Positions 47,449-49,889 of a stretch of DNA of 64,000 nt are shown here, one piece after another (the first letter of the stretch is position 1; every line of letters starts with the position of its first letter). The stretch covers positions 1-64,000 of the forward strand of contig JAJZZD010000006.1 of assembly GCA_021797745.1 (NCBI GenBank), read 5' to 3'. This stretch comes from Microcaldota archaeon (GTDB taxonomy: Archaea > Micrarchaeota > Micrarchaeia > Micrarchaeales > CABMGC01). Below the pieces are notes generated by a model that was not told the origin of the DNA, searched no databases, and saw only the letters and a list, made by a program, of their open reading frames with translations. The position numbers and the translations under genes are program-made.

Positions 47449-48180
47449 GTGCTGGCTTAATTCATGAAGGATCGGCTTATTGCGATTCCAGATATGTCAG
47501 CGGCAATTTACTGTGTAAATTGAAGTAAGTGGCCTTAAGATAGCGTCACTTACGGCCGTCGAGTTTTCAGTATAGGCGAACCTGACTCTGGTTATCTTCG
47601 CAATCGTATAAGCTATCTATATTCTGATTCTTGTCCACAAGATTGTTCTTTTTATTACATCCTGACATTTTTCTATGATTATGAATGCAAATCTCCCGCT
47701 TTTGTTATTGTACAATACACTGACCTGTCCGACACTTTTCTACTTTGTCTATTATACAAATACCGCCCAGTAGCGTCGTAGTGTTTTTCATGTAATCAAT
47801 GAAAACATGCCACAGGCACTTAAAAATAGACTGTGTTAGTTTACTGTGAAGGTGTCGAAGTCAAGTTATAATAAGGGCGGCAGACAGTGCGTCTACTATG
47901 ATGCCGATTTCTGTGTCGTTACCTAATCCTACAGACTCAGGGTGGCAGTGCTCTGTGTAGCACAATTGTCTTTGAGATGTCGGTGAGAATATCCCGTTTA
48001 GACTTACTGCCGTAATAATCAGATAGTAAACAAGTTAAATTACCGAGAATATTAAGGTCACAATCAGGTATGTTTTTATCGAGCGTAGCTGCAGAACCTG
48101 CAATGTATCCTTGCTGTTGATTTCTGTTCCCGCATTTGCGTCTATAGTGTCAGCCAAATGCCGCTGCAAAATTTCAGGTT

Positions 48181-48495
48181 TCACAGCGTGTATTTCTTTA
48201 CTACCTTTATTACCTGCTCAATAGCCCTCTTGATGTCTGCTTCTGTTTTGGCGCCTGTGCATATTATCTTGCCGTTCTTGAAAAGAAGCAGAGCGACTTT
48301 CGGCTCATGTATCTTGTAAATGGCTCCAGGGAACTGCTCCGGTTCGTAGTCTACGTCCATCGAAGCCTTGGCTATTGCATACAAATCCAGCTCTACGCCA
48401 AGGTCTGCGCTTGCGACTATGTTCTCGATTTTGAAGTTAGCCTTTAGCTTAGGTTTCTTTCCTGCAGGTTTAACTGTTTTTTCCACTTTAGCCAT
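48181..48495 (-). CDS. TATA-binding protein, single-repeat ('half-TBP'), about 104 aa
   Basis: MAKVEKTVKPAGKKPKLKANFKIENIVASADLGVELDLYAIAKASMDVDYEPEQFPGAIYKIHEPKVALLLFKNGKIICTGAKTEADIKRAIEQVIKVVKKYTL*: exactly one TBP repeat; the sequence on either side in this frame shows no second repeat. Confidence 0.88.
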   Translation of the reverse strand: MAKVEKTVKPAGKKPKLKANFKIENIVASADLGVELDLYAIAKASMDVDYEPEQFPGAIYKIHEPKVALLLFKNGKIICTGAKTEADIKRAIEQVIKVVKKYTL

Positions 48496-48599
48496 AATAT
48501 CACGGCTTTTAATCTTCAATGGTAAGGTATTTAATGTTTTTATGTATATACCTTTTCGCCTTTTTGGGTTTTCACTGCAATCAGTATGAGGTTTTTCAC

Positions 48600-48887
48600 A
48601 TGAGCGAGCGTTCACACGGTCACCTGGCTAGCAGGACAAGATACCTTGCCAGGCACCACCAGCCTTCAAAGCTTGGCATAACGCAGCTTATCAAGCATTT
48701 CGAAAATGGCGACAAGGTCGCTATCGTCCCAAAGGGCGGCTCCAGGGACATTCCGCATCCCAGGTACAGGGGCAAGATAGGCGTCGTGAGGGAAAAGCGC
48801 GGCAATGCATATGTCGTTGAAATCGACGTTTCCAACAGGACAAAGAGAACCATCATAGTTCCGCAGAGGCACCTAGAAAAAGCCTGA
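48600..48887 (+). CDS. rpl21e: Ribosomal protein eL21
   Basis: MSERSHGHLASRTRYLARHHQPSKLGITQLIKHFENGDKVAIVPKGGSRDIPHPRYRGKIGVV. Confidence 0.93.
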   Translation: MSERSHGHLASRTRYLARHHQPSKLGITQLIKHFENGDKVAIVPKGGSRDIPHPRYRGKIGVVREKRGNAYVVEIDVSNRTKRTIIVPQRHLEKA

Positions 48888-48922: not shown

Positions 48923-49513
48923 TTAGTACTGTTCTCTGTGCGGGGCCATTGGTTTGGTGAGCAGGTAGAACCTGCTGCCTCCTTTCAGCTCCTCTATTAC
49001 GCGCTCAGTTATTAGCTTCACCGGGTCCTGCAAAAGAGGCACCCTGTTAAGCAGGTCGCCGAAGCTCTCGAACTGTTTCTCGTCCCTTGCGGTCAGTATG
49101 GCTTCGAGATGCTTTTTTCCTATCCCTGGAAGAAGTTCCAGTGCGTGCATCCTGATATTGAGCGGACCGGCGTTGTTGAAAAATGCCAGGAATTTCTGCT
49201 CATTGCCTTTTACAATACTTTGTATCGCGTTCGGCAATTCTCTTTTTGCGGCGTCGGTGAGCTGGTCATAAGTTATTCTTTCCTTTATTAGCGCAACTTT
49301 GTCGCGCTCCCCTTTTCCTATGTATACCCTTTCCCCTATCGCCACATCCTTGGTTTTTGTCACTACTTCAAGAAGCGTGAATTTATTCTCGCCGAGCAGT
49401 TGCGCTGTCGGCTCCGACTTAAGCGCAGAAGACCTTCCGGTGGGCATAAAGTCCAGTACGATTGCGTATTCCTCAAGCTCTTCGTGTTTTTCACGTTCGT
49501 TCTCCATTTGCAT
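48923..49513 (-). CDS. DUF655-family protein
   Basis: EYAIVLDFMPTG...IYIGKGERDKVALIKERITYDQLTDAAKRELP...NIRMHALELLPGIGKKHLEAILTAR. Confidence 0.88.
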   Translation of the reverse strand: MQMENEREKHEELEEYAIVLDFMPTGRSSALKSEPTAQLLGENKFTLLEVVTKTKDVAIGERVYIGKGERDKVALIKERITYDQLTDAAKRELPNAIQSIVKGNEQKFLAFFNNAGPLNIRMHALELLPGIGKKHLEAILTARDEKQFESFGDLLNRVPLLQDPVKLITERVIEELKGGSRFYLLTKPMAPHREQY

Positions 49514-49538: not shown

Positions 49539-49889
49539 TCATTTGCCCCTGTATTTTTCCAGTATGCCCATTATCTTCTTGCTCAGTTCTGTGTCTGCTG
49601 TTTCACTGCTTTTCCTAGATTCTATCGCAAGCGCCTGCTTCAGCTGCATGTCGTCAACAGGCATTATGTCTGCTACCTTAACGGCAGCAGCGGCGCTTAT
49701 TCCCAGTTCCTCAAGCTCATTTGTCAGCTTCTTTGCATCGCTGGCCTTGAGCTTGACAAATTTCTTCGCGTGCTCATAAGCAAGCTTCTGCTCGTAGCCA
49801 AGCTCTCCGTCTTCCTTTCTTTCCTCAAGTATCTCCTCTGCCTCGGCCATGCTTACTGGCTTCTTCGCCTGCTCGTTCTTTCCTATCAT
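49539..49889 (-). CDS. rpoF: RNA polymerase subunit F (Rpb4-like)
   Basis: SMAEAEEILEERKEDGELGYEQKLAYEHAKKFVKLKASDAKKLTNELEELGISAAAAVKVADIMPVDDMQLKQAL; upstream of DUF655. Confidence 0.88.
   Translation of the reverse strand: MIGKNEQAKKPVSMAEAEEILEERKEDGELGYEQKLAYEHAKKFVKLKASDAKKLTNELEELGISAAAAVKVADIMPVDDMQLKQALAIESRKSSETADTELSKKIMGILEKYRGK

Follow-up and report, generated by a model that had tools for sequence, protein, structure and literature searches.

The window we examined, a 64,000-nucleotide stretch of contig JAJZZD010000006.1 (positions 1 to 64,000) from the Microcaldota archaeon assembly GCA_021797745.1, contains at 48181–48495 on the minus strand an ORF of 104 codons running from ATG to stop. 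A Pfam search matched the TBP profile PF00352 once and over its full length (positions 1–85 of 85, 108 bits, E 1.7e-31) to residues 20–102 (48190–48438), while residues 1–19 (48439–48495) form a Lys-rich N-terminal tail which is poorly conserved and modelled with low confidence. Within the single lobe, the YEPEQFPG stirrup (48325–48348) includes two Glu residues expected to contact TFB (E51 and E53) and the intercalating Phe F55, and LLLFKNGK (48268–48291) includes the second intercalating Phe F72 and a KNGK turn shared by Micrarchaeia lobes. On the other strand, the gene for ribosomal protein L21e (48588–48887, plus strand; PF01157) starts about 100 bp away and leaves no room upstream for a further lobe, and is followed by genes for a DUF655 protein (48923–49513, minus strand; PF04919) and an RNA polymerase Rpb4/RpoF-like subunit (49539–49889, minus strand; PF03874, E 3.8e-5, just under its cut-off). 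The divergent intergenic region (48496–48599) holds the TBP and L21e promoters, and from the sequence and the motif model of the genome (gAAAnn-TWTWWAWA) we infer a candidate TBP-side BRE/TATA, CGAAAAGG-TATATACA, with the palindromic GTATATAC at 48544–48551. Downstream of the half-TBP gene, about 700 bp (47449–48157) contain no ORF of 50 aa or more and no Rfam match, which is unusually long for a compact genome.

Comparison with PDB sequences placed archaeal TBPs first (Pyrococcus woesei, 7e-44), and the query could be aligned with both P. woesei lobes (83.7 bits for the C lobe and 69 bits for the N lobe). The best AlphaFold model of the monomer was of one TBP lobe (pLDDT 84.8), although the four further models were of low confidence (57–68), and a Foldseek search with the model returned TBPs as best hits at about 3e-8 and only TBPs below E 1e-5. 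A read-through six-frame search of the whole window at maximum sensitivity found no second lobe, intact or decayed by frameshift, and a profile search of the whole genome (806,443 bases in 9 contigs, 90.6% complete) found a single PF00352 place. The observation made in the earlier note, that this is a TATA-binding protein reduced to one repeat with both Phe positions retained, is therefore confirmed, and the full-length TBP which would have argued against it was not found in this assembly.

This single-lobe form is a trait of the lineage. In the window's family (f1) and the other family of its order (f2), every place listed was single-lobe apart from one two-lobe gene in an f2 bin (G162, contig C43) which also has half-TBPs; the best PDB hit of this gene is the Sulfolobus acidocaldarius TBP and it is probably on a foreign contig. 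The named relatives are Candidatus Micrarchaeota, and f2 includes a genome whose TBP place coincides with that of the closed genome of Ca. Micrarchaeum sp. A_DKE, which has two half-TBP genes and no full one. Elsewhere in the class (Micrarchaeia), single-lobe genes were also seen in families f4, f5, f6, f7, f9, f11, f13, f15, f16, f17, f18 and f21, whereas f3, f8, f10, f12, f14, f19, f22, f23, f26 and f27 show two lobes in one frame of about 185–260 aa. Family f7 genomes carry two or three half-TBP genes (among them G074), and in one of these (G082) two lie on one contig about 1 kb apart. No TBP lobe was found at all in four assemblies of 87–92% completeness (G057 of f2, G191 of f1, G088 and G091), probably because of missing contigs.

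Near-identical tandem repeats can collapse in short-read assemblies, and as some relatives have very similar lobes, we considered whether a second repeat might have been hidden by an assembly or annotation artefact. This is very unlikely, as half-length genes recur in dozens of independent assemblies, in the closed A_DKE genome and in four single-contig genomes (G028, G042, G048 and G058), and here the stop codon and neighbouring genes follow directly.

In most of the loci examined the TBP gene is divergent from L21e with RpoF and DUF655 next to it, and this holds both for the single-lobe copy found in our window (copy A) and for the two-lobe genes of sister families. The half-TBP is thus the positional orthologue of a normal TBP and, given that archaea in general have two lobes, is derived. 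The earlier note had named a complete two-repeat gene at this locus in relatives as grounds for refutation, and while such genes are present in other families, the single form is conserved family-wide and is not an error. What this synteny does not support is the suggestion that the protein resembles the proposed pre-duplication ancestor in the sense of being a relic.

Many relatives carry a second half-gene (copy B) at a separate, unlinked place, including nearly all f2 genomes and more than half of the f1 genera, with A_DKE having both A and B. In contrast, genera g1 (this genome), g2, g3, g10, g11, g17, g19, g24 and g25 show A only. A tree of L21e, DUF655 and RpoF placed our genome (G000) with G016, G028, G002, G188 and G189 (support 92/88), and each of these six genomes has A alone, including G028 in a single 771,545-bp contig and G002 at 97% completeness. 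B forms one clade across f1 and f2, so A/B is older than the two families and B was most likely lost in the A-only lineages. It should be noted that a partner gene missing from the 9% of our genome not assembled is not formally excluded for this genome alone, and an A–B heterodimer as suggested for relatives could then be envisaged. We regard this as improbable, as B is missing from all six genomes of the clade (79–97% complete), for which the chance that each assembly would lack it if it were present in all is about 1e-6 by simple multiplication of incompleteness, and B is also missing in g2, g10, g11, g19, g24 and g25.

The origin of A and B is less certain. A and B group together against all canonical lobes with support of 100/97, a tree 17 log-likelihood units better than one in which A is the old N lobe and B the old C lobe of a split TBP, and this favours duplication within the lineage over gene fission followed by loss of B in the A-only lineages. 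However, the fission tree is not rejected (p-AU 0.115), and one lobe marker fits it, as the residue before the S1 Asn is E in f1 A (39/39) and canonical N lobes (7/9) but Q in f1 B (9/9) and canonical C lobes (8/9). Half-TBPs of other families had no B-like copy in the searches made, and fission remains possible but is the less favoured reading. Profile comparison of lobe segments, undertaken to look for the N-lobe start and C-lobe end expected if one repeat had been deleted by recombination, had half-TBPs leaning C-like at both ends, though leave-family-out controls separated N from C lobes poorly.

All 81 half-TBPs compared keep N25, V27, F55 and F72, including both intercalating Phe and the minor-groove Asn of the first strand (S1), and the Glu pair of the YEPE motif (C.L3.2 and C.L3.4, the C-lobe TFB signature described in PMC7221094) is present in all f1 copies and in all but one half-TBP overall, with a D in one f2 B. 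The full YEPEQFPG stirrup is invariant in f1 copies. In canonical two-lobe TBPs, the first Glu is fixed only in the C lobe (9/9) and is mixed in the N lobe (D4 E2 N2 H1). On the basis of these residues, each half could both bend DNA and hold TFB, as a sole TBP would need to do. The genome has one canonical TFB of 381 aa with a Zn ribbon and two cyclin folds on contig C9, as do most relatives checked, and this gene is flanked by two possible TFB-like paralogues, a 334-aa protein with a Zn-ribbon-like start and a 205-aa one whose frame is cut by the contig end (the three lie at L175:463–1467, L175:1474–2619 and L177:1081–1698, L175 and L177 being loci on this contig).

A motif model of 342 upstream regions from the genome gave gAAAnn-TWTWWAWA, most often about 30 bp before the start codon. 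The TATA core is close to palindromic and carries about 0.9 bit of orientation information, with about 3 bits in the flanks, which is what a symmetric TBP with direction set by the BRE would predict. However, the two two-lobe relatives compared (G070 and G147) have equally palindromic cores, and BRE-set orientation is also normal in archaea (PMC7289017), so this is consistent with but not diagnostic of a dimer. We also considered that the protein might act as a monomer, with one lobe on a half-site held by TFB, since some archaeal TBPs need TFB for stable bending (PMC4041446). This seems unlikely, as the motif is a full 8-bp symmetric box, and the first strand, which is the lobe–lobe seam of TBP, is invariant at N25, V27 and A28.

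Two-lobe TBPs in this class have unusually similar lobes, with 67–75% identity in f12, f3, f26, f10 and f8 compared to 42–55% in P. woesei, S. acidocaldarius and Methanocaldococcus (M.) jannaschii. In 8 of 13 such genes tested, codons for shared residues are identical far above codon-usage expectation (e.g. 45 of 54 against 20.9), with examples from f12, f3, f10, f8 and f19, and this means gene conversion or recent duplication in a universal transcription factor. We infer that symmetric lobes are a natural preadaptation for dropping one, and that recombination between them can delete or add a lobe. In one genome (G017, at the end of contig C39; L024:1495–1897, the same as L079:1–412), an in-frame partial second lobe with 98 nt identical to the 3' part of the gene lies directly before a complete half-TBP, and is either a fresh tandem re-duplication or an assembly artefact. 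Parsimony on the neighbour-gene tree requires two changes between one- and two-lobe states, which with a two-lobe root reads as one loss and one regain, but placing all two-lobe genomes on one side is not rejected (p 0.43). Lobe trees, which were based on only 86 columns and had many open forks, gave borderline rejection of Micrarchaeia N lobes being held with canonical N lobes (p 0.049) but did not reject N lobes as one clade (p 0.28). Re-duplication is therefore a serious possibility but not a result. A more speculative and tentative scenario is that TBP in this class switches between two lobes and one by recombination between homogenised repeats, in which the stem lineage fell to a single self-pairing lobe, one clade re-duplicated this into a new two-lobe TBP (re-running the ancient duplication), and another split the job between unlinked A and B half-genes before some members returned to A alone.

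Taken together, we are fairly confident that the gene encodes the general TBP of this archaeon, reduced to one lobe and most likely acting as a homodimer. In this view, two copies of the 104-aa protein would pair edge to edge through their first β strands to rebuild the ten-stranded saddle, each half supplying two Phe and one Asn to the minor groove of a near-palindromic 8-bp TATA box and each offering the Glu pair, with a single canonical TFB binding one of the two equivalent stirrups and the BRE flank deciding which side and hence the direction of transcription; in the wider order, an A–B heterodimer is likely where B is present. Our analyses establish the single lobe, its status as the only TBP found in the genome, the conserved key residues, the synteny and the distribution of A and B, whereas dimerisation, the binding and bending of TATA DNA, TFB binding and the loss of B are inferences. 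The interpretation offered in the earlier note is thus partly supported, as homodimerisation is the natural inference here though probably not universal among relatives, and two-fold symmetric TATA binding with direction left to TFB/BRE agrees with the promoters without being demonstrated by them.

TBP is treated as an obligatory two-lobe saddle in archaea and eukaryotes, yet the duplicated saddle appears to be dispensable in these tiny archaea. A lineage whose only TBP is one lobe makes the long-discussed question of how a pre-duplication TBP could work, and what sets promoter direction when the protein itself is symmetric, directly testable in living organisms, and the A-only, A+B and two-lobe forms in one class provide a natural series that includes a member with a closed genome (A_DKE, with A+B). 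The existence of single-lobe archaeal TBPs is already known in passing, as a 2020 paper (PMC7221094) mentions them in one sentence of its main text, giving no organism or function and citing what we take to be Brindefalk et al. 2013. Our literature searches found nothing else, and as far as we could check, the lineage-wide replacement, A/B pairs, shared locus, palindromic promoters and lobe homogenisation have not been described.

The versions mentioned in PMC7221094 share with our protein a single lobe and an archaeal origin. Archaeal two-lobe TBPs (e.g. P. woesei 1PCZ, M. jannaschii 2Z8U and S. acidocaldarius 1MP9) share the lobe fold, the Phe pairs, Asn, Thr and the YEPE motif, but the half-TBP has only one lobe per chain rather than two in tandem, an FKNGK turn instead of F-x-SGK, and the TFB motif on every lobe. 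A complete two-lobe TBP is also encoded by an 84-kb uncultivated viral contig from IMG/VR (L296:1989–2546), next to a phosphoesterase-like protein which, judged by eye, resembles a DNA polymerase D small subunit. The two-lobe TBPs of the sister families in Micrarchaeia are found at the same locus beside L21e, rpoF and DUF655 where examined, and have the same FKNGK turn and YEPE in both lobes, but differ in having two lobes in one chain. Finally, the single TBP lobe of bacteria, as in the RNase HIII N-domain, has only a distantly similar fold (Foldseek E 0.13) and is fused to a nuclease, with the TFB-contact Glu not conserved in bacterial lobes according to PMC7221094, whereas the protein described here stands alone at 104 aa.
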